A stretch of DNA of 64,000 nt from Megalobrama amblycephala (taxonomy: Eukaryota; Chordata; Actinopteri; Cypriniformes; Xenocyprididae). Positions 15,211 through 63,584 of this stretch are shown here, piece after piece. A program made the translations under genes and the position numbers. Location: NCBI RefSeq assembly GCF_018812025.1, contig NC_063061.1, positions 38,918,544 through 38,982,543 of the forward strand, read 5' to 3'. How positions within the stretch are numbered: the stretch's first letter is position 1; each line of letters starts with the position of its first letter. The notes beneath the pieces were generated by a model. It made no database searches. It had not been told where the DNA came from and saw only the letters and a program-made list of their open reading frames with translations.

Positions 15211-15682
15211 TCGACCATTGACCACGGAACATCTCAATGATCCATTAGGACCTGAACCCCTAACTCCAAACCACATATTGACAATGAAATCGTCAATAAT
15301 CGCACCACCACCTGGTGAATTTGTAAGGGAAGATCTCTACCTTCAGAAGAGATGGAAGAGAGTACAGTTCTTGTCCAATGAATTCTGGACCAGGTGGAGA
15401 AAGGAGTATTTGCTGAATCTACAGCAGAGGAGCAAATGGAACAAGGACAGGAGAAATGCTAAAGTGAATGACATTGTCCTGTTACAAGATGATGGCACAC
15501 CAAGAAATCAATGGAAGCTGGCGAAAGTAGTTGAAGTCTTCCAAGGAGCTGACGGAAGAGTCAGAAAACTCAAACTGTTACTTAGTGACACAACACTAGA
15601 CCGTAAAGGCACATGCTCAAATAAGCCACTTTACTTAGAAAGGTCAGTACACAAAACAGTACTTTTGCTTGAGGCTGAATAA
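15191..15682 (+). pseudogene. BEL/Pao C-terminal domain (DUF5641), frame-shifted
   Basis: This frame carries the end of the polyprotein. NSRPLT is the usual end of the Pao integrase core. The following segment, including LYLQKRWKRVQFLSNEFW, is the DUF5641 domain that closes BEL/Pao polyproteins. It overlaps the pol frame by about 20 bases in a different frame. The ATG at 15191 is unlikely to be a real start; the piece should be continuous with the upstream frame in an intact element. Confidence 0.85.
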
Positions 15683-25363: not shown

Positions 25364-26943
25364 CAGGTGCTGGTCATATAATTAGAATATCATCAAAAAG
25401 TTGATTTATTTCACTAATTCCATTCAAAAAGTGAAACTTGTATATTATATTCATTCATTACACACAGACTGATATATTTCAAATGTTTATTTCTTTTAAT
25501 TTTGATGATTATAACTGACAACTAAGGAATATTGTGAAAAGGTTCAATATTGAAGACACCTGGTGCCACACTCTAATCAGCTAATTAACTCAAAACACCT
25601 TCAAAGGCCTTTAAATGGTCTCTCAGTCTAGTTCTGTAGGCTACACAATCATGGGGAAGACTGCTGACTTGACAGTTGTCCAAAAGACGACCATTGACAC
25701 CTTGCACAAGGAGGGCAAGACACAAAAGGTCGTTGCAAAAGAGGCTGGCTGTTCACAGAGCTCTGTGTCCAAGCACATTAATAGAGAGGCGAAGGGAAGG
25801 AAAAGATGTGGTAGAAAAAAGTGTACAAGCAATAGGGATAACCGCACCCTGGAGAGGATTGTGAAACAAAACCCATTCAAAAATGTGGGGGAGATTCACA
25901 AAGAGTGGACTGCAGCTGGAGTCAGTGCTTCAAGAACCACTACGCACAGATTTACGCAAGACATGGGTTTCAGCTGTCGCATTCCTTGTGTCAAGCCACT
26001 CTTGCACAACAGACAGCGTCAGAAGCGTCTCACATGGGCTAAAGACAAAAAGGACTGGACTGCTGCTGAGTGGTCCAAAGTTATGTTCTCTGATGAAAGT
26101 AAATTTTGCATTTCCTTCGGAAATCAGGGTCCCAGAGTCTGGAGGAAGAGAGGAGAGGCACACAGTCCACGTTGCTTGAGGTCCAGTGTAAAGTTTCCAC
26201 AGTCAGTGATGGTTTGGGGTGCCATGTCATCTGCTGGTGTTGGTCCACTGTGTTTTCTGAGGTCCAAGGTCAACGCAGCCGTATACCAGGAAGTTTTAGA
26301 GCACTTCATGCTTCCTGCTGCTGACTAACTTTATGGAGATGCAGATTTCATTTTCCAACAGGACTTGGCACCTGCACACAGTGCCAAAGCTACCAGTACC
26401 TGGTTTAAGGACCATGGTATCCCTGTTCTTAATTGGCCAGCAAACTCGCCTGACCTTAACCCCATAGAAAATCTATGGGGTATAGTGAAGAGGAAGATGC
26501 GATATGCCAGACCCAACAATGCAGAAGAGCTGAAGGCCACTATCAGAGCAACCTGGGCTCTCATAACACCTGAGCAGTGCCACAGACTGATCGACTCCAT
26601 GCCACGCCGCATTGCTGCAGTAATTCAGGCAAAAGGAGCCCCAACTAAGTATTGAGTGCTGTACATGCTCATACTTTTCATGTTCATACTTTTCAGTAGG
26701 CCAAGATTTCTAAAAATCCTTTCTTTGTATTGGTCTTAAGTAATATTCTCATTTTCTGAGATACTGAATTTGGGATTTTCCTTAGTTGTCAGTTATAATC
26801 ATTAAAATTAAAACAAATAAACATTTGAAATATATCAGTCTGTGTGTAATGAATGAATATAATATACAAGTTTCACTTTTTGAATGGAATTAATGAAATA
26901 AATCAACTTTTTGATGATATTCTAATTATATGACCAGCACCTG
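25364..26943 (+). mobile_element. Tc1/mariner element with intact ends
   Basis: 1,580 bp bounded by CAGGTGCTGGTCATATAATT and its reverse complement, flanked by TA on each side (25362-25363 and 26944-26945). Inverted repeats are about 165 bp long (25364-25530 and 26777-26943). It encodes one transposase frame with a premature stop. Confidence 0.95.
25651..26655 (+). pseudogene. Tc1-like DD34E transposase, one premature stop
   Basis: The frame starts MGKTADLTVVQ at 25651 and would run 334 codons. It shows the helix-turn-helix DNA-binding region (AGCSQSSVSKHINRE), then the DDE catalytic core. The first Asp is in FSDESKF (about 26090), the second in IFQQDLAPAH (about 26362) and the Glu in PIENLWG (about 26465). 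A single in-frame TAA at 26326-26328, between the first and second catalytic Asp, cuts it after 225 residues. The remainder stays in frame to 26655. One base change is enough to explain the stop. The protein normally cuts and pastes the element at TA sites. This copy encodes no complete enzyme but its ends could still be mobilised by a functional relative. Confidence 0.93.
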
Positions 26944-29749: not shown

Positions 29750-30749
29750 NNNNNNNNNNNNNNNNNNNNNNNNNNNNNNNNNNNNNNNNNNNNNNNNNNN
29801 NNNNNNNNNNNNNNNNNNNNNNNNNNNNNNNNNNNNNNNNNNNNNNNNNNNNNNNNNNNNNNNNNNNNNNNNNNNNNNNNNNNNNNNNNNNNNNNNNNNN
29901 NNNNNNNNNNNNNNNNNNNNNNNNNNNNNNNNNNNNNNNNNNNNNNNNNNNNNNNNNNNNNNNNNNNNNNNNNNNNNNNNNNNNNNNNNNNNNNNNNNNN
30001 NNNNNNNNNNNNNNNNNNNNNNNNNNNNNNNNNNNNNNNNNNNNNNNNNNNNNNNNNNNNNNNNNNNNNNNNNNNNNNNNNNNNNNNNNNNNNNNNNNNN
30101 NNNNNNNNNNNNNNNNNNNNNNNNNNNNNNNNNNNNNNNNNNNNNNNNNNNNNNNNNNNNNNNNNNNNNNNNNNNNNNNNNNNNNNNNNNNNNNNNNNNN
30201 NNNNNNNNNNNNNNNNNNNNNNNNNNNNNNNNNNNNNNNNNNNNNNNNNNNNNNNNNNNNNNNNNNNNNNNNNNNNNNNNNNNNNNNNNNNNNNNNNNNN
30301 NNNNNNNNNNNNNNNNNNNNNNNNNNNNNNNNNNNNNNNNNNNNNNNNNNNNNNNNNNNNNNNNNNNNNNNNNNNNNNNNNNNNNNNNNNNNNNNNNNNN
30401 NNNNNNNNNNNNNNNNNNNNNNNNNNNNNNNNNNNNNNNNNNNNNNNNNNNNNNNNNNNNNNNNNNNNNNNNNNNNNNNNNNNNNNNNNNNNNNNNNNNN
30501 NNNNNNNNNNNNNNNNNNNNNNNNNNNNNNNNNNNNNNNNNNNNNNNNNNNNNNNNNNNNNNNNNNNNNNNNNNNNNNNNNNNNNNNNNNNNNNNNNNNN
30601 NNNNNNNNNNNNNNNNNNNNNNNNNNNNNNNNNNNNNNNNNNNNNNNNNNNNNNNNNNNNNNNNNNNNNNNNNNNNNNNNNNNNNNNNNNNNNNNNNNNN
30701 NNNNNNNNNNNNNNNNNNNNNNNNNNNNNNNNNNNNNNNNNNNNNNNNN
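29750..30749. other. Assembly gap (1,000 N)
   Basis: Exactly 1,000 undetermined bases, a round size that suggests a placeholder of unknown true length. It abuts a minisatellite, the probable cause. Confidence 0.98.
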
Positions 30750-39836: not shown

Positions 39837-40376
39837 GACATCAGGAACATCAGGAAAATCAGGCCCTTTCTAACAGAACATGCAACACAACTTCTGGTCC
39901 AGGCCCTGGTCATTTCTAGGCTTGATTACTGCAATGCTCTTCTGGCTGGACTGCCATCATGCACAATCAAGCCTCTACAAATGATTCAGAACGCAGCAGC
40001 ACGTCTCGTCTTCAACGAGCCCAAAAGAGCCCACGTCACGCCTCTCTTCATCTCTCTTCACTGGCTACCACTTGCTGCTTGCATCAAATTCAAGGCGCTG
40101 ACGCTTGCTTACAGATCCACCACAGGCTCAGCACCCTCCTACTTCCACTCACTCTTACGAGTCTACACTCCTACCAGAAACCTGCGCTCATTAAAGGAGC
40201 GAAGGCTTGTGGTACCATCACAGAGAGGCACAAAATCACTTTCCAGAACGTTCTCGTTCACTGTTCCTTGCTGGTGGAACGACCTTCCTGCCTCCATCCG
40301 GAATGCGGAATCCCTGGCAATATTCAAAAGACAGCTGAAAACCCATCTCTTTCGTGAGCACTTAACCTCATCTTAA
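39837..40376 (+). pseudogene. L2-type reverse transcriptase, C-terminal fragment
   Basis: The open frame encodes SRLDYCNALLAGLP, then IQNAAARLVFNEPKRAHVTP, then LHWLPLAACIKFKALTLAYR and WNDLPASIRNAESLAIFKRQ. These are the conserved thumb and post-thumb motifs of CR1/L2-clade LINE proteins. About 179 codons are open up to a TAA in the poly-A junction. The catalytic YXDD core and the endonuclease lie upstream in a full element and are missing here. An in-frame stop precedes 39837, so this is a dead 5'-truncated copy with an unusually well kept 3' end. Confidence 0.88.
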
Positions 40377-43910: not shown

Positions 43911-46900
43911 ATGGTGCCTGAACATGGGAAGCAGCAGAAACGCTCGTCGCAGCCGTCTAATCCTGAGGGCGACGTGGACGGATCGTTCGTGTTTGAAGCC
44001 CAAGAGGCCTGGAAGGACTTCCACAACTCGCTCCGACAGTTTTACGAGAACGGAGAACTGTGTGACGTCACTCTGAAGGTGTCTGAACAGCGCTGTGCTC
44101 CGTGTCTGCAGTGATGTCAGAATGATCTCATCCTAAATTTCTCTCTTTTCTTTTTCACTGAAGGTTGGAAACAGACTCATACCATGTCACAAGCTAGTTC
44201 TGGCCTGCGTCGTTCCTTATTTCCGTGCCATGTTCCTCTCAGACATGGCCGAGGCCAAACAGGACCTGATTGAGATACGCGATTTCGACGCTGACGCCAT
44301 CCAGGACCTGGTGGGTTTCGCCTACTCCTCTCGACTGACTCTGACGGTGGATAACGTCCAGCCGTTGCTGTACGCGGCGTGTATCCTGCAGGTGGAGCTG
44401 ATCGCCCGTGCCTGCTGCGAGTACATGAAGGCTCATTTCCACCCCTCCAACTGTCTGGCCGTCCGCACGTTCGCGGAGAGTCACAACAGGGTGGACCTGA
44501 TGGACATGGCCGACCGTTACGCCTGTGAGCATTTCAGCGAAGTGGTGGAGTGTGAGGACTTCATCTGCGTTTCACCACAGCACCTGAAAACCCTGCTGGC
44601 CTCCAGTGACCTCAACATTCAGTCTGAGTCTCAAGTGTACAACGCTGCAGTCAAATGGCTGAAAGCAAATCTGAAACACCACGACGTCTGGCTGGATCAG
44701 ATCATGTCTCAGGTTAGCCGCTCAGAGCTGTGATAGATTTAGTTGGTTGGTTGGTTGGGGATAGACTTGTGACGATAATGCGATATATCGCGATAATGAA
44801 TATGCATGATATTATTATCGTGGGCATTTCAAAATACCGTAAATAATAATTTATTACCAATTATTAAAATTTTTATAATGCATTTAAGAATACTTTCCCC
44901 ATCAACCGTATAAAATGCACACACCGCTGTATTCTGTAAACAAGCCCAGCATGCACGAGAAGCACATGGCGGAAAGGAGACGCGCTGAATGAAAGTGCAC
45001 GATCACTCTCTGACAGCAGAGGGCGCTGATGGAACAGCAGAAATGCAGCGGTTACCCCGGAAACCCCGCAAACAAAGCAGCTGCGCTAGTGAAGTTTTTA
45101 AAATGCCTCAAACAGCCATTCATTTTTTTGTAATCTCAGTGTTGTTCATCACAGCACCAAATACTTAAAGACTTAATAGGCTATTTATTTTAAAACTTAA
45201 ACATTTTTATATTTTAATCTGAACTACAACATGCCCTAATGATTAGAAATGTTCTGATTATTTGTTATTGTTCAGTAAAACTTTGAGACATACGGCTTCA
45301 TTAGTTAACATGTTAATTTATTATTACCAAACTGACCATGAAAAATACTTATAAAGCATTAATTATTCTTAGTTAATGTTAATTTCTTAGTTACTGTTTA
45401 ATAACATTACTAAAATCAAAAGAACTTATTTAATGGACCTGAGATAAAACTAACAATGATCAGTTGTATTTCTTAACACTAACAAAAAATAATACTTTCT
45501 GTAACAAATGTAGCTGTTGCTCAATCTTAGTTAATGCATTAATGAGATCTTATTGTAAAGTGTTTCCTGTTGTTCTTTATAGCCTAATTCTTTTGCACTT
45601 TAATCTGTTTGAAAATTTTACTTTATATATTTTTTGTGTATTGAATTATTGTATTTAAACATTTGTTATAAGAAAAAGAGTTCTTCAACCTGTTATACCA
45701 TGACAAATTTTTTTTTTTTTTTTTTGCAGCTTATTTCAATATCGTGATAATACCGTACATCGTGATAAAAGCTTCAGTGATTAATCGCAATATGAAAATT
45801 TGATACCGTCACATGCCTAGTTAGGTTAGGGATCATGTTTTACAAGGTCTTTTCAATAAATAAGGTAACTTGATCTCTAACGTGAGGACGTTTACCTGCT
45901 GAAGGTCCTGCTTCCATGCAAAACCACCAGATCCCAAAAACACATTGGCCATGAAGTCCAACAAAAGTGCCAGTACGGCTGGATCCGTGGAAACATGCCG
46001 TGTGATCCGGTTACCTTGTGTCGTATTTCAGAAACTGATTTGTTCTTAGCCTGATGGAAGCGTTCTGATGGGCTTTTCTCTCACAGGTGCGTCTTCCTCT
46101 GCTGCCGGTGGACTTCCTCACAGCCACTGTTGCCAAAGAGGAAATAATCAAGGCCAATCTGAACTGCAGAGATCTTTTGGATGAGGCTCGCAACTATCAT
46201 TTGCACCTTAGTAACAAGAGCGTTCCTGACTTTGAGTATTCTGTCCGCACGACACCCCGCAAACACACCGCTGGTCAGGACATTCAGCCCTTTTCACACT
46301 TGTGCAGTTACTCTTTTCTGTCTTTTAACATTTTAACCTCCCAGATCCTGCTGTACGCATTCTTTAACTGAGACTTTTCCGCTTGAACTTTGACAGGTGT
46401 GTTGTTCTGTGTTGGGGGACGGGGCGGTTCCGGTGACCCGTTCCGCAGTATCGAGTGTTACTCCATCAGTAAAAACAGCTGGTTCTTCGGGCCTGAAATG
46501 AACAGCAGACGGAGACACGTGGGAGTGATCTCAGTGACGGGTGAGAAAGAGAGATGAGAAGCAGTGATTTAAAAACTTTGAAAATGACTCAAAGATGAAA
46601 ATATTCTATTTATTGTTAAGAGACACTTTCACTTAAAATGTCCTTTTTCAGGTTGCCTTTAGATTTGAAGGTTTAGACATCAGCGTAGAGGCAATATGAA
46701 CTAGGGCTGTGCAATTGCAATATCTTAATCGTTATTGAGTATGTTGCAAACGCATCAGCGTAACAGTGAAAATGGCATGCTTCGCAGCATGTACAGCAGA
46801 GGTCCTAGTACTGAGCCTTGTGGTTCTCCACACTGAACTTGTGATCAACTGCTTACAACAAATGACACAAACCTATGAAGAAAACTCCACATTCATCCAT

Positions 46901-49710
46901 TTACAGGGAAAGTTTATGCTGTTGGCGGCCATGACGGCAATGAGCACCTCGGGAACATGGAGATGTTTGATCCACACACCAACAAGTGGATGATGAAAGC
47001 GTCCATGAACACAAAACGGTATGACAAACTGACCTAACGTTCTGCTCTAATACTATTCATCAGATGTATAGTTTTAATTCTCATGGTGTTAATCTGTACA
47101 TATGCGTTATCCACCCGACCAGCAAAAGAAAGATATTGTAAGTATTGAAACAGCTGACAGAACGACGAACGAGAGAAAATGCTGTTTTGTCTTTGGTCAG
47201 GAGGGGGATTGCGCTGGCCGCTCTCGGCGGTCCCATCTACGCCATCGGCGGTCTGGATGATAACTCCTGCTTCAGTGATGTGGAGCGCTATGACATCGAG
47301 TCGGACCGCTGGAGCGCCGTCGCCCCCATGAACACGCCCCGAGGAGGCGTCGGGTCTGTGGCGCTCGGGGTACGAAGGCCACAACAAGAGAAGTTCATTA
47401 TGAGTTATGATTGTACAGAGGTGTTAAAATGTCCAAAAACCACTAGAACAGTGGTGTATATGTTGTTGACTTGTGTACGTACATGATCCTAAATGTTTCT
47501 AACAATGTTTAAATCCAGAGAAATCAGCAATTTTAACTCGTGTCAATGCGTCGCATGTCAGTGATGTCATATCTGCGTCACCCCTGATTTCTTTGTCGAA
47601 AACATGGGAACACCAAATCCGCTTTAAAGTATTATGAGTTTTACTAGGACCTGTTTCCACCTGGTATTAAGATGCGTCTTGGTCGATCGGATCACAAGTG
47701 GATGACATTAAATCCAGGTGTAAACGGCGTGTAGACGTTCATGTGGTCCGATGCGTTAGAATAGCCACTAACTCTCCAAATACTGGCCTAACGTGTAAAC
47801 ATTATGGGAAGCGCTCTAGCCATACTGGACTTTAAACTTTGTCAGCTGAAGACCCAAGTTTGGTTTTGGAGACAAAAAAAAGTACCAAGCACAATGTTCC
47901 ATCGTCTCCGGGTTGCGTTCATATTGTAAAGTGCACAAGCTTCTTTTGTCCATTACATCAAAACATCTGAAAAAACCCACACATTTACCCACCTATAGAC
48001 CCTCCCCTGGAAGAAATCAGGACAGGAGTGGTTAAAAGTGGACAAAAAACACCAGGTGGAAACAGGAATGTCTCCCCTCGTGTGATCCGATCGGCCAAAA
48101 TGCATCTTCTCCACCATACAATATATTTTAAAATGAACTGCATGCCATTTAGCAACATAAGACATCCAGCTTTTATTAATGACAATCTCATTTCGATCAA
48201 TGCAGTGTTCAACAAGTGTCTCATAGCGCAGCCGTCGAACTACCGCACAGAGTAACGTTAGAACTTTCAACACACTCAAATGTATTAATATGAGTGTTTT
48301 AACCAAGTAAAACAGCGTTGTTACCCCACAGTCACATGACTTATGACTGCGGCACATAAGCATAATAAAAGCTGCCGCACTCTCGATGCGACTCCAGGCC
48401 GGTGTTTTGAGCAGGTGTCTCTCACTCTCAGACGCTCCCACAGCTCTCGCCCCGCCCTGCTTCAAACTACAGTAGCATTAATAAATCTTCCATGAACATC
48501 CATGAACAAGATTTCTGCCCGAGTCCCATAACATTGCTTTCCATCGGCTGTGGAGGAGACAATTCCCATGATTCCATTCACGCATCATTAAAGTATATGC
48601 CTTTGTTTTGAATAAGCGACCTCTAGTGGTGAAACTTACATACTGTGCCTTTTAAAGGGTTAGTTCGCCCAAAAATTAAATTTCTGTCATTAATTACATG
48701 TCGATTCACAACCGTAAGACCTTCGTTTTTTTTTCATCTTTAAATTAAGATAATTTTGATGAAATCTGAGAGGTTTCTGATCTCCCTGTACACAGCAATG
48801 TCATAACAAATTTCAAGGCACAGAAAGGTACTAAAGACATCATTAAAACAGTCATGTGACTGCAGTGGTTCAACTTGATGTTATGAATTATATTAAAAAT
48901 AACGATTTTATTCAAAATTTTCTTCTCTGACGCTGTTGACGTAGGAAAAACAGTGCAGCGCTTCCAGGTTCTACGTCAGAGCGGCGGCTCAGTATTGGTC
49001 AGTGATGCTGACGCAGGAGTTGCAGGTTTGAACCCACTGATGTGTCATTTGTTGATTCGATCAGGGTTATGTGTACGCGGTCGGGGGAAATGACGGCGTC
49101 GCATCGCTGTCCAGCGTGGAGCGGTTCGACCCTCATCTAAACAAATGGACAGATGTGCGAGAAATGGGGCAGCGGCGCGCTGGAAACGGTGTCAGTGAGC
49201 TCAACGGATGCCTCTACGTTGTTGGTAAAGATCAGAATCTGTATTTGACCTTCTCAATTTAGACCTGAACAGATTTCTGACGGATCGTCGTGTTTGTCTG
49301 AAGGTGGTTTTGACGATAATTCTCCGCTGAGCTCAGTCGAGCGCTTCGACCCCAGGATGAACCGCTGGGAGTATGTGGCAGAGCTGACCACACCGAGGGG
49401 CGGAGTCGGCGTTGCCACGGTGATGGGGCGTGTCTTTGCGGTAGGAGGGCACAATGGAAACATCTACCTGAACACGGTGGAGGCCTTCGAGCCCCGGATG
49501 AACCGGTGAGATATATAAAGATTCTGCAGAAGATGGTTGTGATTTGAGTCAGGTGGGATCAGCTGTTTGTGTGTGTTTTTGCTCAGGTGGGAGCTGGTCG
49601 GCTCCGTGTCTCACTGTCGGGCCGGTGCGGGAGTCGCAGTCTGTTCCACTCACATCAGTCAGATTCGGGACGTCGGCCAGGGCTCCAGTAACGTCGCCGA
49701 CTGCATGTAG
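43911..49710 (+). CDS. klhl8: Kelch-like protein 8
   Basis: Nine coding exons: 43911-44078, 44164-44712, 46087-46273, 46397-46540, 46907-47018, 47201-47369, 49065-49224, 49304-49505 and 49587-49710. They give 1,815 bases, 604 residues plus TAG; all borders are AG/GT and phases agree. The ATG at 43911 follows an acceptor at 43887. Domains: BTB (about residues 30-145, containing ENGELCDVTLK and HKLVLACVVPYFRAMFLSDM), BACK (about 150-260, HFHPSNCLAVRTFAESHNR), then six Kelch blades (about 305-590, each with a Gly-Gly pair) ending at NVADCM. The sequence follows human KLHL8 (620 residues) nearly end to end, with a shorter N-terminus. BTB-BACK-Kelch proteins bring substrates to Cullin-3 ubiquitin ligases; mammalian KLHL8 is linked to rapsyn turnover. 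Introns 2 and 6 hold transposons. Confidence 0.97.
44762..45820. mobile_element. hAT-type element in klhl8 intron 2
   Basis: Begins TAGACTTGTGACGATAATGC and ends with the imperfect inverse (TACCGTCACATGCCTA). Both ends carry clustered ATCGCGATA/ATCGTGATA words, a pattern of a known hAT family. No transposase frame. Confidence 0.65.
46541..46906. other. klhl8 intron 4
   Basis: Ordinary intron; the last part (46690-46830) looks repeat-derived. No extra exon. Confidence 0.5.
47645..48110. mobile_element. MITE-like inverted repeat in klhl8 intron 6
   Basis: CCTGTTTCCACCTGGTATTA (47650) pairs with CACCAGGTGGAAACAGGAAT (48050). GGTCGATCGGATCAC pairs with GTGATCCGATCGGCC near the right end. It is a non-coding DNA-transposon derivative. 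Confidence 0.65.
48650..48985. repeat. Dispersed cyprinid repeat in klhl8 intron 6
   Basis: Begins GGGTTAGTTCGCCCAAAAAT and continues through CAACCGTAAGACCTTCG. This sequence is very abundant in cyprinid genomes (recalled, not searched). It is probably a non-autonomous DNA transposon. Confidence 0.6.
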
Positions 49711-52384: not shown

Positions 52385-52427
52385 ATGTTTTTGTTTGTCT
52401 TCATCCTCGTTGGACTCATCCATTCTG
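52385..52427 (+). other. Signal-peptide exon of the mosaic lectin
   Basis: Encodes MFLFVFILVGLIHS and ends in phase 1 with a GTAAG donor. It is the only good ATG-plus-hydrophobic segment upstream of CTLD1 and joins it in frame as HSGFSQCEEGW. Confidence 0.85.
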
Positions 52428-52760
52428 GTAAGTAGTAAATTTAATACAATAACCAATTTGTGGGATGGCAAAAGCTTCATTCTTTGTTAATCATGACTGA
52501 GAATCAACTGCTCTGTAATTCAGTGTTCAGAAGATGTAAGAACATCTGCAAAATATTTCCACTAGTTCTTCAGAAACACAATCTGAAATCGTGTTTAACA
52601 TTATGGCTAAACCCTATAACGAAACAAACAAGTAATTAACATGAGATGAATCTGCATGCGGCTCTTTCCATGAATAGGCTTCAAAATATGGTCTGAAAAA
52701 AATTCACAAAATTCAGTTTTCAGTAAAAGGTAAGTTGAAACAGGTGCTTAAACTTCTGAC

Positions 52761-52842
<82 letters not shown>

Positions 52843-55800
52843 TTTATTATGTCTTTTAATTCAAGCATATTTAATACAATTATACCAATAAACATCTGCT
52901 TTAAAGACGTATTTTTTACCATTAGTTATTCCTCATTTTTCATTCTACTTTCTCTTCCTTTCACTTTTTATTTTTCTTTCATGATAATACCCATCACCAA
53001 CACAAAAAAATAAAATAAAATAAATAATAATTAGAGACATAGCCAATACATACATAATTAAGCACTTTTACATATAGAAAAAAAACAAGAAATACACACA
53101 CACACAAATAAAAAATTAGACATTCACATAACCATTTCTAAATCTTATAATGACACCTAATTCCTAATAAGTAATTCAAATAGTATTATATAAACATAAG
53201 TTAATAATAATATTAAATAAGTAAATAAAAAAAAGAAATAATAATAATAACATTAATAGTAATAAGTAAGTTAAAAGGGAGGCAGAATTATACAAGAATG
53301 TAATTAAAACATGCATTCCTTTATTTTTTATGATATATAATTAATTTTAAAGGTGTCTAAATCTTTTCAAAAAGTATACTTTTGCTCTTAATTTCATATG
53401 TCATCCAACTTCTGACAAACATCAAACCAAATATTTTAGATGTTTTAGCCTCACTTTTTAAAACCTATGTAACATTTACCAATAAATTTTAAATAATAAT
53501 TTAACAAAATAAAGTAGCATGAAATAATGCTGGTAGTGCCCCATATTTGTGCTCCATGTCTTTACTGCTGTTTTTTTTTTTTTTTTCTCCTCAGGGTCAT
53601 CTGACTTTGTACAATTCACAGTACAATAAATTATGACTCTTTTCTACAGTTGATTTGAATCATGTGATTATGACACTTACATATTGACCATTTCAGTAAA
53701 ACATTAGCAGTGACACTCATGTTTTAACATCTTAGTCATGGGACTTTTTATGATGGAAAATTTGACCATTATAATTTTCAAGCAGAAATTTAACCCTAAC
53801 CCTGACAATTTGCCTTAGAGGAACTGTTCGATGAAGTTATTACCCAAGTTCAGTCTCTTTTACATGACTGTCCTCATGATGTTTCTGATTAACACATTGT
53901 TTTCTCCAAGGCTTCAGTCAGTGTGAGGAGGGCTGGCGGCCATACGAGGAGAAATGTTACTTCTTCTCCTCGGACATGAAGACGTGGCACGACGCGCTGG
54001 AGGACTGTGTCAGCAAGGGAAGTAATCTGATGAGCATCAAGGACATCCACGAGCGGGTGAGACACACACAGCAGTAACAATGAGAAACAGATGACATTAA
54101 CAAATGCATTCGAGACGTCACCCTTCTGTTCTGTTCAGACGTGGGTCCGGACGCAGATCGGAACCTCCATCTTCTGGATCGGACTGAATGACGTGGCGTC
54201 AGAGGGAAACTGGGAATGGAGTGATGGGAGTGTTTTCTACCCCTACCTGTCGTAAGTCAGACATTCACTCTCACAACCGATTTCTTCATTGTGTAGCTCT
54301 GCATTGTGAAAATGAAAAGCTGCTGCTGTTGACAGTTTTCAGAGTTTTTGCAGGAACGCATGGTTTCTATTTTGAGAAACAGATGCAGAAGTTTCCCACA
54401 CTGATCACTAAAATGATCCCTCAAATATCTTTACAGTAACAGGCCTATCTATAGTGTATTATCTGAAGTTCTGTGTAAGGAGTTTGGGATTGAAGAATTC
54501 CCATCCCCATGACAGAAAAACACTTGTGTGAATTGCAGGTATTGGAAGGAGGGTCAGCCGGACAACTGGGGAGATAATGAGGATTGTGGGCAGGTTCAGG
54601 GCGCCAGTGACGGCAGATGGAATGATGAAACCTGCACAGCCAGACGCCAGTATATCTGTAAACGACTAAACCGTACGTATGATGCATCACACATAAGGTT
54701 AGAGAGTCAGACTGGTAACCCGAAGGTTGCAGGTTCGATTCTCAATACTGGCAGGAAATGACTGAGGTGCCCTAGAGCAAGACACCAAACCTGGGTGTGT
54801 TCACTATTCATTACTACTCCAAGTGCAGAGGAAGTGCATGGGTTACCATACTTGGCCTTCACATGTCACTTTAACATACAGAGAGAGTTTATATGTCTGT
54901 GTCTTTCTCCAGCTAACCCTACTCCGCTCTGTGACACGGAGAACGGCTGGCAGCCCTACGGCTCAAACTGCTACAAACGAAGGGCGGGCGCTCGGAAGAG
55001 CTGGGCGGCGGCTCGCAGCGACTGTGTCAGAGAGGGCGGAGACTTGGTGTCCATCACATCTTCTGAGGAGGAGCAGTACGTCACCAGCCGTCTGGACGCG
55101 TCCGCCTTTGACCTCTGGATCGGGTTTTCCACAATGGTGAGAATCATCAGTTAGATCTTCACTGGACCGCTCAAGCATGATGAAATTTGTTGTATAATTG
55201 GTTGATAAACAACAAACTTTATTTTTTATTTAGTTTTTATCTCTTAAAACAAGACTGCCAGGGCAATCACCTCCCTTCTTTTCACAGAAATGCACAACTT
55301 TATCCTGTCAAATTCAACCAAATGCCACGACTTTTACCTGGTCTGATGCAAGTACTTCCACATACGTAAACTGGCCGGAGGGACAACCTGATCTCACGTA
55401 AGACAACTGTTAAACTAGTTAGTTTTATCAGTGTGTTTCTCACCGTCTGAAGAGTCTATAATGAAATAAAGTGTTTCAGTGTCGACCTGTGTGATGATAA
55501 CTGAAACTGTCACTGTTGGATCTAGTGACAAAGCCAACGGCGTGTGCACTGCTATGATAAAAGAAGCAACAGAGGATTATGGGAAATGGAGAACACACGT
55601 CTGCCGTCATGAGCGACCTTACATGTGCAAGAGAGCTTTGAATAGTAAGATCCAGAGTTGTTTTGTCCCTCTGTGTTTGTGCGCTGAGATAAAGTATTTC
55701 GCATGATTCTGTCATTGATGTTACAAATGAATTTAGTCATTATAAATGTGCCTCAAACTCTTTTGGGATCAGAGATATGCTCTTATGTTTCTGTCACTCC

Positions 55801-58800
55801 AGCCATTTGTCCTTCCGGATGGTTGAGTTTCTCAGGAAGCTGTTACTGGTTGGTCAGTAACCAGAATCTCTTGACCAGCTGGTATCTGGCTCAGACCAAG
55901 TGCTTTGACATGGGCGCAAACCTCCTGACCATCAAAAAGTGAGAATACTGACTGAAGTTTAAGGGAGATTCGTTTGGATTGTAAAGGCTCACATACATTG
56001 TTTGTTTTCATCTCTAGTGAAGCGGAGCAGTTCTTCATTAACGCACAGTTGCCTGATTTTCACCAGGTGGATATTCCTGATCTGTGGATTGGCATTTCAG
56101 GTGAGTGATTCATACAATAGAGGATTTTACCCTAAACACTATCAGCTCCCACTGGAGAAAGACTTCAGTTCAAGTTTTTACTGTCCCTCCTGGGGTTTCA
56201 GAATGAGTTTTAGCCAAACATCTGTCCTTGAAGACAATAAAGATGGTCTCTGATCAGAAAGTACTATGATCTGCATCAGTTATCTGTACGTGAACAATCT
56301 TGGTGCTGTCTTTCTGATTCATAACACCATCAGATAAGGACCAAGATGGGACGTTTAGGTGGGTGGACAAAACTGCAGTTGAGTTTTCAAACTGGAGCCC
56401 AAATTTCCCTCAGAATACAGCAAACCAGTGGGACTGTGGCCAGATTTACACCGGTAAGATTATTGGTTGTCGGGAAGACACTCAATGTCACAATATTAGC
56501 TTCAAAAGATTTTGAGCTGAATCTGTTTTTATTTCTGGTATTAGGAAATTATGCTGGAAAGTGGGAAAGTACCAACTGCTTTAAAAATCTTGGATACATC
56601 TGCAAGATGCCAGGAGGACAGAATGTGAAGCCCACGTCAGCTCCAGGTGAAGTCCCACACTGAATGTACCGGCTGGTGTTTGGCTTTATGGTCAGGGGTG
56701 CAAAACACAGTTCCTGGAGGGCCTGCAGAGTTAGTTCCAGCCCTGCTCCAACACACAGACCTGTAGTTTTCAAATAACACACACTAGAAGATTTTCAAAA
56801 CTCAACCGATTTGAAAACTGTGGGAGACCACAGACACAATGACAGTTTCAACCAATTTCAACCAAAAACACACTAGATGATTCGACCAGACTGTGAGACC
56901 ACACACCTGTTTATTGCAGGAACGATTTCACACTGAGACAAGATCTCACAGAGACTCACGAGATCAAACGTGACGTCTTTTTCAAACATAGTCCTTAAAA
57001 AAAGATTTTTTGCCATGCCGTCGTTTTACGCCGGACTGCTTCACAAACGAGGCTCAATTCAACACAAAAGATGAACATGACGGCACATGCTAGTGGATGA
57101 GTTGAATCAACTCCACAGCAACTACATAAATTTATCCACTAACCATTCAGAAATGTCCAGTTTCATTCTAAAAGTTGTAACTTCTTCCTGAGTCTCTCCA
57201 TCAGTGTCGACTCCGGTTTGAACAATGTAAGGCTGAACACCGTTACTGACAATCCTCATTTTGGCTGCGTGAGATTCTCCAGCTTTGTTGTTGTTGAGCT
57301 GTTAAAGCTCCGCCCTCTTCTGGAAAGCGGAGCTCATTTGCATTTAAAGGGACACACACAAAAACGGCGTGTTTTTGCTCACACCCAAATAGGGGCAAAT
57401 TTGACAAGCTATAATAAATGATCTATGGGGTATTTTGAGCTCAAACTTCACACACACATTCTGGGGACACCAGAGACTTATATTACATCTTGTGAAAGGG
57501 CATAGTAGGTCCCCTTTAAATAATAATAATAATAATAATTTGTTACATTTATATAGTGCTTTTCTGGGTACTCAAAACGCTTTTACATATAGTAGGGGGA
57601 ATCTCCTCAACCACCACCAATGTGCAGCATCCACCTGGATGATGCAACGGCAGCCATATTGCGCCAGAACGCCCACCACACACCAGCTTATTGGTGGAGA
57701 GGAGTGATGAAGCCAATCAGTGTAATGAGATGATTATGAGGCCATGGTGGACAAAGGCCAATGGGCAAATCTGGCCAGGATGTCGGGGTTACACCCCTAC
57801 TCTTTTCGAAGGACATCCTGGGATTTTTAACGACCACAGAGAGTCAGGACCTCGGTTTAACGTCTCATCCGAAGGACGGTGCTTTTTGACAGTATAGTGT
57901 CCCCATCACTATACTGGGGTGTTAGGACCCACACAGACCACAGGGTGAGCGCCCCCTGCTGGCCTCACTAACACCTCTTCCAGCAGCAACCTAGTTTTCC
58001 CAGGAGGTCTCCCATCCATTGTACTAACCAGGCTCAGCCCTGCTTAGCTTCAGTGGGCAACTAATCTTGGGCTACAGGGTGATATGACTGCTGGCAATAA
58101 TAATCGTAATGACACCACACAATAAAGCAGTGGTTCCCAAACCTGTCCCCTGCACATTTTGTATGTCTCCCTCATCTATCACACCTGATTCAATTCATGT
58201 GCTCATTAATAGCGACAGCAAGACCTGAAATAGGTGTGTCAGATGAGGGCGACATACAGTACAATGTGTGCAGGGCTGGGGGTTGTCCAGGACAGGTTTG
58301 GGAACCACTGCAATAGAGGATTTTTTGGACAAAAAATGGTTTGTGACAAGCCTCGAATCAGGCTGCATCCGCAACCCCACGTAACTATCGTTCACCCCTG
58401 GATTTGGAGATTTTGCATTTTCAGACTGCCTGCTTTTTCTTTCTTTTTTTTTTTTTTTTTTGCATTGAATGTGAAAGCAGTTCAATAAACATAACAGTTG
58501 AGTTAGTGTCAGTGTTGTGTTTTTACTTTGATACATGTGAAGCTGGAGGTTCAATGAATGTTTTTCTGCAGATTCACACTGTGATGAAGGATATCTGCTC
58601 TTCGGTGAACACTGCTATCACTTTGAGTCCGAATCAGTCAAGACCTGGCAGGATGCAGAAAGCTACTGTGTGGCTCAAAATGGACACCTGGTCAGCATCC
58701 ACAACCAGGAGACAATCAGTTTTCTGACAGGTGCGACGGCAGACAGAATGACTTCTATCCTAGAGATTCTCCAACAAAGAGTTTTACTCCTGGATCATTT

Positions 58801-61800
58801 TGCTCACAAAAGCTCACCGTAATGACGTTTTGTTTCTCACAGCTCACATGAGCAGATCTTCCTGGGTGGGTCTCAATGACATCGACAGAGAGGGAACATT
58901 TGTGTGGACAGACGGAACTCAAGCTGTAAGTTATCAGACCTTAAACTTCATCAAATGAACCGATACATCTGACTGCACAAAGTGAGAAAGCTTCTGGTGC
59001 ATACGCATACCTGAGAAATGCTGAGAAACTATTTCGAGTTCAATCCTCACCCTGTAGAAAGAGCAATGATTCTGGATCAGCTTTATTTTGAGTGTATGTG
59101 TTTCTCTGAAGGACTTCCTGCCGTGGGAGACGAACCAGCCTGATAACTGGCAGAATAATGAAGACTGTGTTCACATCCGAGGGACTGAGCACCAAGATAC
59201 AGGGAAAATCAACGACCTGCCCTGCACAGCCACTTACCCTTTCATTTGCCAGAAAGGTGGGAACTTTTCCTGTTTGATTTTATTGTTTACACATATATTG
59301 TTCAATGCATTGTTTTAGTGAGTTACACTAGCCTTTCGTTAATCTACTTTATACCTATCATGTTCTTCAAATCCATTCAGTTCCATGAAGTTGTGATTCT
59401 GAAATATTGATTTATTTTATTATTAATTATTTTTCAGCAAAAGGTCAAGGGCCACCCGCTCCCCCAACAACTGGTCCAGGTACAGATTATACATACATAT
59501 ATACACATCCTGAAAATGTTAACCCCTTAGTATATGCGTATTCATCTTTATGATTTTAGAAATCCAGAAAAATGTAAATCTAATAACAACAGGAAAAATT
59601 AATCAAAAATCATGTGTACAGACAGTAAGATTTCCTTCTTCCATTGAAGCTCAAAATGCTCTTTAGATGATGTCTGATCCCGCTGGAGAACATGATCCTC
59701 AGTTTAAGTTCATGTTGCTCCAGATGCACAGCAAACACTGAGACATTCTTACATTCATGTTTGTTTCAGATTTACTTATGGTACATTTCTGTCTCTTCGC
59801 ATTCGACTGTAAAGGGTACGTTTATACTGAAAATGGAAAACTTTTTCCTTTGCATTTTTCACGTAAGGACAATCGCCATTATCAAATTGATCCTCATTCA
59901 CATGGATCCACGAAAACAAATAAAAGTGCTGTATTCTGCTGCCAGGCCAGTAGATGGCAATGTCACTTTGTAAAGAAAAACCATGCGCCTGCAGACTGAA
60001 CACGTATACTCATGTGCGCGACATTACCGTTTTCACAAATGTGCGTTTGTGTAGTTTACACAGAGACGACAACAGTAAACTTCACTTGGAAACCCGTTTT
60101 TAAAAGTTTGTGCTTTCAGGCCCCCAGAACGCCATTATTGTGTAAATGAAAGGCCAAAACGCATAAAAAGTTTCACGTTTTTAGTTGAAAATGGAGTCAA
60201 GTAAATGACCCCTTAGTGTCCAATTATTCCACTCTTGAACTTCTTATTTCCTTTACTGCTTCTGTCAGGCTGGAATGAGAAGTGCGGCTCCTGGGTCGCC
60301 GACCCGTTCAATGATTACTGTTACCTGTTTACGACTCTGTCCATGAGAAAGTGGGCTGATGCCCGTGCAGATTGTGTGAATCAGGGTGGAGATCTGATCA
60401 GCATCACCGAGCCGTTTGAACAGGGCTTCATCCAAGGTTAGTTTTGAACACAGACATGCCAGTTACATTTGGAGTTTCTGAATGGACTTTTCCAGATCCT
60501 TTTACACTCATTTCTGACATTCACTCATCTTCAGCTCAGATCCAGGCGGTTCCCACAGGAGTTTCCCTGTGGATGGGGGCTCATGACTCCATCACCGAGG
60601 GCGGCTGGACGTGGACAGATGGTTCTCCCTTCCGCTACATAAACTGGGCTGCAGGTGATGCTTTACGATGAGATGATGAAGCATCTTTTAAACTTTTTTT
60701 TCTTCATTTATCCAATTTCAAGTTAAATGGAGAAGATAATCTGCACGTTTAATTGACTGTTAAAGGAAACCCTGATGATTATTACGGTGAAGACTGCCTG
60801 TCCATTCTGATCAACTCTGGAGCGTGGAATGACGATAACTGTGAGAATAACAGAGGATATATCTGCAAGCGTCGTGGTGCGTTCTGCTGCCCCATTCATA
60901 CCTACAGAAATGAGATGTAATGAAGTATTGATAGAGTTTAGAAAACATGTCTTCTCTCTTTTCAGGGAATACACCCGAGCCTCCTCCGCCACATGATGGT
61001 ATGTTTGGCTTCTGTTTATTATGTAACGTGCAACTCTAGAGCCTTTCTGAGTTTCTGCTTGTCTTCTTCTCTAGGTTTCTACACCACATACGCCTGTCAG
61101 GACTCCAGCTTGGTCCTTCACTGCCCCCAGAACAGCGTCATCAACATCCAGTCGGCTTTTTACGGACGCCGCAGTGACAAGATCTGCCCATATGGAGACG
61201 GAGCCTCTGGTAACTCACAGCACTAAGAGTGTAAATGAGTAGGTTTCAATTGTTCGTACAGGATTTCTGACGTACTGGTGATCTTTCAGGTGTGTGCACT
61301 GTTGAGGGAACGCTGGCTTTGGCCAGGAAAAACTGTGATAACAGAGAGTTCTGTTTCCTGTTCGCACACGCTGAGACTGACCCCTGCCCGACCGTCTCCA
61401 AATACCTGGAGGTGGTTTTCAGCTGTGAGCAGAACGGTGAGAGAGGACCTGAATATGAATGAAAGAAATGTTGTAAATGCTTGAAGTCACTGTCTGAACA
61501 TCATCCCAATTAAAAAGAGGTTTAGATGAAGAAGGAGAAAAAAACTTGAAAAAACTTCTAATGCAGTAGTAAATGTTGCAGTAGATGATCTTGATGATTC
61601 TGTGTTTCCAGTGTGTTTGAGAGGCTTGGGTGTGGAGGATGGAAATGTCACTAATTCAATGCTCTCGGCATCATCATCTCTCAGTGGAAATGGGCCGGAT
61701 AAAGGTCGCCTGAATGGGAACTCATGCTGGATGCCCTCTGCTTCCGGTCAGTCTCCTGAATCACCCATAGTAAGGTTTTAGATATAAGTCCTTCACATCT

Positions 61801-63584
61801 CCTCCCTGACGTTCCAACTCACACTGTGTGTTTCAGCAAACTCCTGGATTCAGGTGAATGTGGGACAGCTGAAGAAGATCACCGGGGTGGTCATTCAGGG
61901 CTGCCCGTCAACAGAGCACTGGGTTACTATGTTTAAGATCCAGACCAGCACAGATGGCCTGAACTGGAATGACTACAGCAGTGACGGAGGGGTAAAAACA
62001 CACATGCTCATAGTTGTTCTGAGGAGCATCTATGCATCTATCTGAAAAGATCAGACATGATGAGTTCATGCGATGCTGATGGTGATTCTGTCACAGGAGT
62101 ATCCGGGTTCTGTGGACAAGACGACTCCAGAGACACGCTTGTTGGGGACGCCGATCTCCGCACAGTACGTCCGGGTTCTGCCGCTGCAGTGGAATGGTCA
62201 AGTGGGATTGCGTCTGGACATTCTGGGCTGCGTACCGGACTGTGAGTTCAACAGAAGCGATGAATTTGTTGTTGTGGCTCTTTTAAACTGAAATAGAACT
62301 ATAATTCAGTGTGTATTAAAACAGTCTTTTCCCTCTTTTTTGGGTTGTTGCCGTTTCTTCAGATGCTGTTTCTTGCAGTGCAAAACCCAACCTGGACCAC
62401 TCCATAGACAGAATGACGTAATTATTCAGTCTTTGAATGTCTGAAACACTGCACATCTGGTGTCTCCATTACTGAACACACCTGATTTAAATAATCAGCA
62501 TAACGCTGGACATACAGTGCTGTGGAGTCGCAACCAATCATCTAAATCCTTTATAGTGCATGATGTAGAACAACTGTTATAGATTTACGTTTTACTTTGA
62601 ATCACATTTAAACAGTGTTGGAGAAAGTTAATGCTCACATTTAGTCAAGAACTACAGTAACCATCATGTTCACACACAACGCCTCTACACTTAAGATTCT
62701 CTCAACATGGAGCTCCTGTCAGTCAATACATGGGAAAACAAAGTAACTTGTGTTACTTATTTGAAAAAGTAACTCAGATATTTTGTTGCAAATTTAAAAG
62801 TAATGCGTTACTTTACAAGTTACTTGAAATAAGTCATCTGATTATATAACTCAAGTTACCTGTAATGCGTTACCTCCAACACTGCATTCAAAAGCATTTC
62901 TCTTTGTGTTCTTGTTGGTTTCAGGGTTCACTGCCCTGCGGGTTGTGCCAGGGAGGCGTATTCTGTGTACGGGACAGATATGTATCGCGGGGTATGAGTA
63001 TGATAAATTATATCCTGACCCCCCGATTCTAGTGTAAGTGAACCAAACGCTTCAGTTGAGCATTTTTCTCATGATTCAGGACTCTAATATCTGTGCGGCT
63101 GCGATCCACGCCGGAGTGGTTTTGAATGACATCGGAGGAGACTGTACTCTGCTCAAAGCTGACGGTCAGAACTTCTACAGTGGATCCACCAGGAACGGCA
63201 TCGTCTCCAGACAGTAAGTGTCTTCAGTCTTCTCTGGAATACCTGCGGACGAGTCAGATATAGAGTGAAATGTGCTGTGTATTTGTGTCTCAGGTTCGAT
63301 GGGCTCTACTCTGTGTCCTACCAATTTACTGATGGAGGTGAGACAAAGTCTTCTAACTAACCACAACATTATTCACTATTGCAAAGCTCTGAATGGTGTG
63401 TCTCTTTCAGAGTTGAGGTGTTCTGGTCCAGACTGGTACGAGTTTGGAGAGTTCTGCTACAAGCCATTCGAAGAGAAGACAACGTGGCATAATGCGCGGA
63501 CGGCCTGCAGGAAGCTGGGAGCAGATCTGGCGTCGATCATGTCCATGACGGAGCAGAGCTGGCTGGAAAGCTACCTGTACCTGG
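52385..63584 (+). CDS. Mosaic multi-lectin receptor: CTLD x6, SUEL, F5/8C, LCCL (3' end not seen)
   Basis: Exons: 52385-52427, 53911-54056, 54139-54251, 54539-54672, 54913-55136, 55288-55397, 55472-55644, 55803-55938, 56018-56100, 56334-56453, 56545-56646, 58572-58730, 58843-58925, 59112-59256, 59438-59479, 60269-60436, 60535-60654, 60766-60876, 60966-60998, 61075-61209, 61290-61436, 61612-61746, 61837-61991, 62097-62241, 62363-62417, 62925-62991, 63080-63213, 63294-63337 and 63411-63584. They sum to 3,436 bases with one unbroken frame (about 1,145 residues). Order: signal peptide MFLFVFILVGLIHS; CTLD1-5; Pro-rich linker; SUEL lectin; discoidin; LCCL; CTLD6, which is unfinished. CTLD strings recall macrophage mannose receptor relatives, but the expected ricin-like and fibronectin II domains are absent and the last three domain types do not belong to that family. 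A membrane anchor would lie beyond the window. Role inferred: carbohydrate recognition at the surface or outside the cell. Confidence 0.85.
52768..52841. repeat. (TA)n microsatellite
   Basis: About 37 TA units in the first intron of the lectin gene. Confidence 0.97.
52842..53910. other. First intron of the lectin gene
   Basis: Very AT-rich, low-complexity intron with a poly-T run near 53571. No exon. Confidence 0.6.
53911..54672 (+). other. CTLD1 (residues about 19-145)
   Basis: Three exons. Begins CEEGWRPYEEKCYFF, contains the WIGLNDVASEGNWEWSDG core, and has QPDNW with a following NEDC, then WNDETC and YICK. QPD plus WND is the full calcium-site pair found in galactose-type C-type lectins. 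This is the most canonical domain in the gene. Confidence 0.9.
54696..54880 (+). mobile_element. tRNA-derived SINE in a lectin-gene intron
   Basis: Head with A-box-like GTTAGAGAGTCAGACTGG and B-box GGTTCGATTCTC at tRNA spacing. The body (GAGGTGCCCTAGAGCAAGACA and onward) matches a common fish SINE. Confidence 0.8.
54913..55644 (+). other. CTLD2 (residues about 146-314)
   Basis: Three exons. Begins CDTENGWQPYGSNCYKR and ends PYMCKRALN. It keeps QPD but has WRTHVC where WND is expected, so calcium-dependent sugar binding is doubtful. The third exon needs the acceptor at 55470-55471 to stay in frame. Confidence 0.8.
55803..56646 (+). other. CTLD3 (residues about 315-461)
   Basis: Four exons. 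Contains CPSGWLSFSGSCYWL, LWIGISDKDQDGTFRWVD and GYICKMPGG. It lacks EPN/QPD (NFPQNTANQWDC) and has WESTNC in place of WND. It is probably structural rather than sugar-binding. Confidence 0.85.
56690..56800. repeat. Dispersed repeat fragment
   Basis: CAGTTCCTGGAGGGCCTGCA followed by GCCCTGCTCCAACACAC is a sequence recurrent in fish DNA transposons. Only one end is visible. Confidence 0.5.
57290..57520. repeat. Dispersed repeat, inverse copy at 23875-24005
   Basis: Shares the block around CAAATTTGACAAGCTATAAT with 23.9 kb in opposite orientation. Ends near TAGGTCCCCTTTAA. Confidence 0.65.
57524..58100 (-). mobile_element. SINE3-type retroposon with 5S rRNA-derived head
   Basis: On the minus strand the head at about 57995-58060 reads GAAGCTAAGCAGGGCTGAGC and then TGGATGGGAGACCTCCTGGG. 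These are the A-box and C-box regions of 5S rRNA. The body follows and an (ATT)n tail lies at 57524-57538. This matches the 5S-headed SINE3 class of zebrafish and relatives. It is not a functional 5S gene because the 5S part is cut off and diverged. Confidence 0.9.
58128..58310. mobile_element. hAT MITE, 183 bp
   Basis: Ends CAGTGGTTCCCAAACCTGTC and its exact inverse, flanked by near-identical 8-bp repeats CAATAAAG (58120-58127) and CAATAGAG (58311-58318). It is a non-autonomous hAT element inside a lectin-gene intron. Confidence 0.9.
58572..59256 (+). other. CTLD4 (residues about 462-590)
   Basis: Three exons. Begins CDEGYLLFGEHCYHF, contains WVGLNDIDREGTFVWTDG, QPDNW plus NEDC, then INDLPC (Ile for Trp in the WND motif) and PFICQK. 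The calcium site is nearly complete, galactose-type by motif. Confidence 0.88.
59438..59479 (+). other. Pro/Gly linker exon
   Basis: A 42-base symmetrical phase-1 exon encoding a short linker (KGQGPPAPPTTGP) between CTLD4 and CTLD5. Confidence 0.7.
59480..60268. other. Intron between linker and CTLD5
   Basis: No exon recognised. The part at 59800-60190 is self-complementary in places and may be a MITE. Confidence 0.4.
60269..60876 (+). other. CTLD5 (residues about 605-737)
   Basis: Three exons. Contains CGSWVADPFNDYCYLF, LWMGAHDSITEGGWTWTDG, NPDDYYGEDC and WNDDNCENNRGYICKRR. It keeps WND but has NPD in place of EPN/QPD, so sugar preference cannot be read from the motif. Confidence 0.88.
60966..60998 (+). 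other. Pro-rich linker exon
   Basis: A 33-base phase-1 exon (NTPEPPPPHD) separating the CTLD array from the SUEL domain. Confidence 0.7.
61075..61436 (+). other. SUEL / galactose-binding lectin domain
   Basis: Two exons. Encodes YACQDSSLVLHCPQNSVI, INIQSAFYGRRS, CPYGD then VCTVEGT, with cysteine spacing and ending CPTVSKYLEVVFSCE. This is the rhamnose/galactose-binding SUEL fold seen in latrophilins and fish egg lectins. Start and end both lie on phase-1 introns. Confidence 0.9.
61612..62241 (+). other. F5/8 type C (discoidin) domain
   Basis: Three exons. Shows LGVEDGNVTNSMLSASSS, NSWIQVNVGQLKKITGVVIQ, FKIQTSTDGLNWNDY and AQYVRVLPLQWNG, ending LRLDILGC. This is the full discoidin pattern, which binds phospholipid, collagen or glycans depending on the protein. 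Confidence 0.93.
62363..63337 (+). other. LCCL domain
   Basis: Four exons. A short lead-in with SCSAKP is followed by VHCPAGCAREAYSVYGTDMY, CAAAIHAGVVLNDIGGDC and NGIVSRQFDGLYSVSYQF. The HCP.GC start, the AAIHAG core and a late NGI are typical of LCCL domains (Limulus factor C, cochlin, CRISPLD, DCBLD). Confidence 0.92.
63411..63584 (+). other. CTLD6, first exon
   Basis: Begins CSGPDWYEFGEFCYKPF and includes TWHNARTACRKLGADLASI. It ends in phase 1 at a GTATG donor. The rest of this domain lies beyond the mapped exons. Confidence 0.88.

Follow-up and report, generated by a model that had tools for sequence, protein, structure and literature searches.

Does the chain of binding modules near the end of a 64,000-nucleotide stretch of the Megalobrama amblycephala genome (NCBI RefSeq assembly GCF_018812025.1, contig NC_063061.1, positions 38,918,544 to 38,982,543, forward strand; the window, to which the positions below refer) belong to one gene, and what would its product be? 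The chain runs through five C-type lectin-like domains (CTLDs), a SUEL lectin domain, an F5/8C (discoidin) domain, an LCCL domain and the start of a sixth CTLD. It belongs to a real and conserved gene, predicted since 2004 and often mislabelled. The window probably holds the 5' half of this gene, 29 of roughly 55 exons, the remainder lying past position 64000. The gene is likely to be the cyprinid orthologue of DEC-205-FUSE of Fugu rubripes, a single gene for a type I membrane protein that would act as an endocytic scavenger or pattern-recognition receptor.

The 29 exons lie on the forward strand between 52385 and 63584 (Table 1) and join into a single open frame of 1127 codons, with GT-AG ends in 28 of 28 introns. 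The one-frame chain of 29 exons proposed in a sequence-only reading of this DNA was rebuilt in this way and is confirmed as real, not a product of chance. For exon 7 a more obvious acceptor AG, before 55480, was rejected on account of a frameshift and stops, and the exon was started at 55526. Introns at domain boundaries are in phase 1 in all 11 cases, against 7 of 17 within domains (Fisher P 0.0016), as is typical of genes built up from symmetrical modules. The gap between CTLD5 and SUEL consists of one small exon flanked by introns of 89 and 76 bases, both in phase 1. In all, 11.2 kb and 29 exons are spent on half of the protein.

The spliced translation (1127 residues) was scanned with Pfam, and eight families were matched. 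Lectin_C (E 2.8e-108, five stretches), F5_F8_type_C (E 2.5e-28, residues 843-961), LCCL (E 2.8e-21, residues 983-1056) and SUEL_Lectin (E 9.9e-16, residues 745-821) were above the curated cut-offs. The other four were weaker matches overlapping the same domains: three exceeded their cut-offs (F5_F8_type_C_2 and two virus C-type-lectin-like models), and one, Rxt3, did not. The piece encoded by exon 29, scanned alone, matched Lectin_C above cut-off (E 9.8e-06) as the start of CTLD6. The scan agrees with the earlier claim that four binding-domain families follow one another in the order given above within one protein. The nearest relatives of the F5/8C domain are neuropilin b domains, followed by factor VIII C domains, and the only PDB match of the LCCL domain is cochlin.

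Past the end of the window the protein is known from orthologues. The translation is identical at 1106 of 1127 positions (98.1%), without a gap, to a predicted protein of Chanodichthys (P0083, 2163 aa, cluster of 116 member sequences). In P0083 the sequence goes on through the remaining part of CTLD6 and CTLD7-12 to a transmembrane helix, and its tail ends in DVPAFTNPNFPGESET. The membrane segment whose presence beyond 64000 had been left as a question is therefore present in orthologues. Four further proteins (P0089, P0091, P0117 and P0128), with 63-76% identity to the six named fish orthologues used for comparison, each carry all 15 domains in the order five CTLDs, SUEL, F5/8C, LCCL, seven CTLDs and tail. 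Their complete open reading frames (ORFs) of 6498-6519 nt lie on contigs of 6835, 8566, 6969 and 6844 nt, respectively. Contigs of 6.8-8.6 kb are too small for an intron-rich gene; judged by this size they are most likely spliced transcripts, and therefore a single mRNA would carry the whole ORF.

Conservation was counted over 50 full-length vertebrate proteins, hand-picked from the 120 rows listed of 137 database matches; partial and Syngnathus rows and others (such as P0090, P0092, P0099, P0100, P0125, P0132, P0133 and P0148) are excluded from the set. Exactly 12 CTLDs are present in 48 of the 50 and 13 in the other two, a hydrophobic run of helix strength in 49, and the tail motif FxNPx[FY] in 48. 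The motif reads FENPHY in lamprey and FENPQY in the Styela protein P0180. The SUEL domain retains its eight cysteines in 50/50, DPC in 46/50 and YGR in 33/50, with a glutamine after the first cysteine in 35/50. A structure model of P0006 from Electrophorus (978 aa, 35-row alignment) reached a mean pLDDT of 79.9, with single domains fair; its pTM was 0.32 and module packing is not readable. A Foldseek search with this model returned the mannose-receptor, neuropilin and factor VIII relations again.

Motifs of the CTLD sugar sites were counted over the 48 vertebrate proteins with twelve CTLDs. EPN marks a mannose-type and QPD a galactose-type specificity. CTLD8 and CTLD10 contain both EPN and WND in 48/48, followed by CTLD9 (EPN 48/48, WND 46/48), CTLD12 (EPN 46/48, WND 48/48) and CTLD6 (EPN 41/48, WND 45/48). 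In CTLD11 the place of EPN is taken by EPS (31/48) or EPT (15/48), with WND in 48/48. Galactose-type or related motifs are found in CTLD1 (QPD 46/48, WND 43/48), CTLD5 (NPD 42/48, WND 46/48), CTLD4 (QPD 47/48, with LND, FND or IND in 42/48) and CTLD7 (QPD 41/48, WDD 39/48; EPN and WNN in P0083 itself). Sugar-site motifs appear conserved in about eight CTLDs. Predicted sugar binding by SUEL is less certain, given the counts for YGR and for the glutamine after the first cysteine. The number of sugar sites predicted to be intact appears to exceed that of the mannose receptor.

The complete protein would comprise a signal peptide, CTLD1-5, SUEL, F5/8C, LCCL and CTLD6-12, then a single transmembrane helix and, in a short tail, FxNPxF. 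Calcium-dependent CTLD sites (EPN in CTLD6, 8, 9, 10 and 12; QPD or NPD in CTLD1, 4 and 5), together with SUEL and F5/8C, would have as ligands multivalent glycoconjugates carried by microbes, dead cells or secreted proteins, and the receptor would enter coated pits by way of its FxNPx[FY] motif. Calcium and sugar binding, uptake, ligands and cell type are predictions from sequence. FxNPxY is a known type of endocytosis signal. The sequence-only reading suggested pathogen recognition, egg-surface binding or matrix contact as possible roles; from the conserved tail motif, an endocytic receptor is favoured. The nearest solved sequences in the PDB search are the endocytic receptors FcRY, PLA2R, LY75 and MRC1.

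Several points weigh against this function. The window itself stops before the helix and the tail, both of which are known from orthologues. The helix is absent in P0075 (1/50) and the tail motif in P0076 and P0078 (2/50), exceptions that we take as misprediction or divergence, and departures from the motif are seen in amphioxus (FDNALY) and the Styela protein P0048 (FDNPLS). Such tail motifs also occur in signalling or adhesion receptors. CTLD2 and CTLD3 are without a WND-type sugar motif, SUEL keeps YGR in only 33/50 with the glutamine in 35/50, and expression, binding or uptake data for the receptor were not found.

A membrane-anchored adhesion, matrix or egg-coat protein, with lectin modules for the attachment of cells to matrix or gametes and a tail motif for signalling or anchoring, is the best surviving alternative to the endocytic receptor, and we consider it unlikely. 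Fish egg lectins and latrophilins contain SUEL domains and neuropilins F5/8C domains, Syngnathus has many derived copies of this receptor family, and a change in expression of C-type lectin paralogues in pipefish brood-pouch tissue is described in the accessible part of one report (PMC3853555); that these are the same genes is a guess. The adhesion reading has to face two facts: the endocytic mannose-receptor family is the nearest relative over CTLD5-12, and the FxNPx[FY] tail is retained in 48/50 vertebrate proteins.

Highly improbable is the reading suggested by database names, that the receptor simply is MRC1, MRC2, PLA2R1 or LY75. Fish records are often named 'macrophage mannose receptor 1', others MRC2, PLA2R1 or LY75, and the CTLDs are homologous to those of these four proteins. 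Members of the mannose-receptor family carry an N-terminal cysteine-rich (CysR, ricin-type) domain and a fibronectin type II (FNII) domain, followed by 8 or 10 contiguous CTLDs, according to the available part of the source (PMC7948739). In contrast, the window protein gave no Pfam match to either N-terminal domain, CTLD1 stands right after the signal peptide, CTLD1-4 are extra, and the 12 CTLDs are interrupted after the fifth by SUEL-F5/8C-LCCL. The names were rejected as family membership on CysR, FNII and CTLD number. Moreover, a separate protein with ricin-type domain, FNII and eight CTLDs exists in a fish (P0062, Brienomyrus), and in one tree the mosaics and two mannose-receptor-type proteins form separate clades. 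Weakest of all and very unlikely are two adjacent genes (CTLD1-5; SUEL onward) misread as one, the model that the sequence-only reading had named as its possible refutation. Nothing was found in its favour, and it was rejected on the transcript-sized contigs that hold the complete ORF, on the two short phase-1 introns that leave little room for a second gene start, and on the presence of all modules within single predicted proteins also in lamprey, amphioxus and Styela.

The mannose-receptor family consists of type I membrane proteins with short tails, a form that is also predicted for the receptor from its orthologues, and CTLDs 1-8 of that family align best, in order, with CTLDs 5-12 of the receptor. 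The FNII-bearing proteins of mannose-receptor type listed were P0062 and P0063 (Brienomyrus isoforms with ricin-type domain) and P0064 (FNII, no PF00652), of which P0062 and P0064 were tested with position profiles. Their eight CTLDs fit positions 5-12: a shift of four scores 140 and 170, the next shift 24 and 22 (permutation P 5e-5 and 3.5e-4, respectively), and CTLD5 and CTLD8 of P0064 fit this register weakly. In the PDB search, CTLD6-12 of P0083 align in one run starting at CTLD2 of PLA2R, FcRY and LY75, and at CTLD2 of MRC1 and MRC2 fragments. Single MRC1 domains, which we take to be MRC1 CTLD4, align on CTLD8 of P0083. CTLD5 is set on CTLD1 only in shorter PDB fragments (MRC2 5e4k, 5ao5 and 5ao6; MRC1 5xtw; query CTLD1-6).

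Against the shift of four, the query with CTLD1-6 scored higher in the PDB when its CTLD2/3-5 were set in different registers (residues 298-728 on FcRY 955-1386, 154-719 on PLA2R 358-920, 296-717 on LY75 1241-1660 and 414-718 on MRC1 304-606). The lack of CTLD7-12 in that query is taken to explain these runs, as the P0083 search and the position profiles agree on the shift of four. The equation of CTLD5 with mannose-receptor CTLD1 rests mainly on the position profiles. It follows from the register that the SUEL-F5/8C-LCCL block would lie between mannose-receptor CTLD1 and CTLD2. The receptor is most likely an ancient paralogue of the mannose-receptor family.

Among the matches listed, the gene occurs across ray-finned fish; gar, sturgeon, osteoglossomorphs and eels all have it. 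Across the central block, identity is 47% for a lamprey orthologue and 40% for one from amphioxus. In the tunicate Styela it is 35%, with 60% of the query aligned; an amphioxus query gave more records from amphioxus and Styela. With profiles of the 12 CTLD positions, the amphioxus and tunicate CTLDs fall on the same diagonal (P0137, P0178 and P0180; permutation P 5e-5 each). An extra F5/8C domain lies between CTLD3 and CTLD4 in amphioxus and between CTLD4 and CTLD5 in Styela P0178 and P0180. The receptor therefore appears ancient, older than fish. No shark, lobe-fin or tetrapod orthologue was among the best 120 of 137 matches, tetrapod rows being coagulation factor VIII only; this absence is not proven, because the search depends on shared words and the amphioxus query missed all fish mosaics, with none among its 69 matches.

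Giant octocoral proteins (P0153 of Xenia and P0156 of Dendronephthya) show the order three CTLDs, F5/8C, two CTLDs, SUEL, six CTLDs and F5/8C, close to that of amphioxus. Their register was examined with five mappings, two profile sets and two species (20 tests, uncorrected P). Neither the straight mapping (P 0.32-0.63) nor the first five CTLDs taken by themselves (P 0.17-0.64) gave support. With mapping to positions 1-5 and 7-12, P was 0.0065 and 0.00045 for Dendronephthya, and 0.068 and 0.029 for Xenia. For an octocoral origin of the mosaic these values are suggestive only.

In a rooted tree of CTLD5-12 (LG+G4+F, octocoral outgroup) the two mannose-receptor-type proteins fall outside all chordate mosaics with support 91, not as sister of the vertebrate mosaics; attraction is possible, given the length of the mannose-receptor-type branches and of the octocoral stem, and the root depends on the uncertain octocoral mapping. 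Whether the block was lost by the mannose-receptor family or gained by the mosaic depends on this root, and the octocoral module order, with its weakly supported CTLD register, makes the loss plausible. As a tentative history, the mannose-receptor family may be a stripped-down relative of the mosaic. An ancestor older than the split of amphioxus and vertebrates, perhaps older than the cnidarian split, would have carried CTLD1-5 and SUEL, possibly F5/8C and LCCL, and then some seven further CTLDs. On the line to the mannose-receptor family, CTLD1-4 and SUEL-F5/8C-LCCL would have been lost and CysR-FNII gained. The full receptor would have persisted in ray-finned fish and lampreys and disappeared in tetrapods.

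The mosaic can also be set beside other known families. F5/8C is joined to LCCL as in DCBLD1/2 and neuropilins (DCBLD2 row P0060), the F5/8C domain being closest to neuropilin b domains. The DCBLD family combines CUB, LCCL and F5/8C, whereas Pfam gave no CUB match in the 1127 residues, which contain many CTLDs and SUEL instead. PKD1L2-type proteins (CTLD plus SUEL, group X) are defined by REJ, PLAT or channel domains, and none of these was found in the window protein or in the Pfam list of P0083, which places the receptor outside that type. The eight cysteines, YGR and DPC given for rhamnose-binding lectins and latrophilins in the accessible part of a review (PMC3269628) are all present in the SUEL domain of the window. 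Different from those proteins are the single SUEL within a giant receptor and the lack of YGR in 17/50 orthologues.

The sequence-only reading knew of no well-described vertebrate protein that joins these domains, while allowing for an unnamed predicted gene; as a claim of novelty this does not stand, since the architecture minus SUEL was already predicted. DEC-205-FUSE was predicted in Fugu rubripes by Zelensky and Gready in 2004 (BMC Genomics 5:51, PMC514892), where the gene structure is called tentative and no human orthologue is reported in the part available. Its description gives five CTLDs at the N-terminus, a central F5/8C and LCCL, and then 7 (assembly v3) to 10 CTLDs, about 2000 residues in total; five CTLDs, F5/8C with LCCL and about seven CTLDs are found in the window and, for the remainder, in P0083. 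The words SUEL and rhamnose and a cDNA are absent from the accessible text of that paper (PMC514892), whereas the receptor has a SUEL domain, and it adds 12 CTLDs in 48/50, the helix, the tail and transcript-sized contigs. Orthology is inferred from this architecture and from the same gene across ray-finned fish, the Fugu model being compared by its description. CTLD, F5/8C and LCCL also stand among the domains in a figure of rhamnose-lectin-domain proteins in the 2011 review, as far as it is accessible (PMC3269628), and dozens of fish records exist under other names. Among the matches listed in open-licence literature, with subscription journals mostly outside, no paper was found on the full architecture, the lamprey or amphioxus orthologues or the mannose-receptor register. 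New here are the lamprey, amphioxus and tunicate orthologues, the conservation of the sugar motifs, the FxNPx[FY] tail and the register of mannose-receptor CTLD1-8 on CTLD5-12.

Table 1. Parts of the receptor gene within the window, with exon positions.
Feature	Position	Strand	Remarks
Exon 1: start codon and signal peptide	52385..52427	+	Same start as P0083; hydrophobic
CTLD1, exons 2-4 (53911-54056, 54139-54251, 54539-54672)	53911..54672	+	QPD and WND motifs
CTLD2, exons 5-7 (54913-55136, 55288-55397, 55526-55644)	54913..55644	+	WND motif lost
CTLD3, exons 8-11 (55803-55938, 56018-56100, 56334-56453, 56545-56646)	55803..56646	+	Sugar motifs lost
CTLD4, exons 12-14 (58572-58730, 58843-58925, 59112-59256)	58572..59256	+	QPD and IND
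Exon 15: proline-rich linker	59438..59479	+	
CTLD5, exons 16-18 (60269-60436, 60535-60654, 60766-60876)	60269..60876	+	NPD and WND; best matches CTLD1 of mannose-receptor-type proteins
Exon 19: proline-rich linker	60966..60998	+	
SUEL (rhamnose-binding lectin) domain, exons 20-21 (61075-61209, 61290-61436)	61075..61436	+	8 Cys, YGR and DPC motifs
F5/8C (discoidin) domain, exons 22-24 (61612-61746, 61837-61991, 62097-62241)	61612..62241	+	
LCCL domain, exons 25-28 (62363-62417, 62925-62991, 63080-63213, 63294-63337)	62363..63337	+	
Exon 29: first third of CTLD6	63411..63584	+	

Some lineages depart from the common form of the receptor. The pipefish Syngnathus and Vanacampus have at least 34 clusters (isoforms included) of derived copies, within P0023-P0046 and P0136-P0151. 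In P0023 and P0141 a CTLD2-4-5 triplet is repeated 3 and 5 times, respectively, ahead of SUEL-F5/8C-LCCL-CTLD6, and seven pipefish clusters contain a galectin domain (PF00337). The seahorse protein P0110 and the Nerophis protein P0130 have the ordinary 12-CTLD form. The tunicate protein P0048 (Styela) has added FN2, kringle and trefoil domains, with an FN2-like stretch inside CTLD7 by eye.

Within the window, a TA microsatellite (52769-52842) lies in intron 1 of the receptor gene. Upstream, pieces of a BTB-BACK-Kelch gene on the forward strand (44137-47480; BTB E 6e-23, BACK 2e-23, Kelch_1 1e-13) presumably resemble KLHL8; to our knowledge the human mannose-receptor genes are not near KLHL8. 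Long retrotransposon-like ORFs at 9168-15679 (+; 1711 aa and others), which we take to be of BEL/Pao type, end in a DUF5641 piece (E 1.5e-27), and the first 242 residues of the long ORF gave no Pfam match. A Tc1/mariner-like transposase lies in two frames at 25615-26652 (+; DDE_3 E 2e-12 from a scan of 26329-26649). An assembly gap of 1000 N (29750-30749) is followed by low-complexity repeats, and an open frame at 39837-40370 (+) resembles a reverse-transcriptase fragment by eye, with no Pfam match.

Correct naming of the receptor matters, since this gene may be what is measured in fish immunology work that trusts the name 'macrophage mannose receptor 1'. For the mannose-receptor family as a whole, the receptor gives a testable history.

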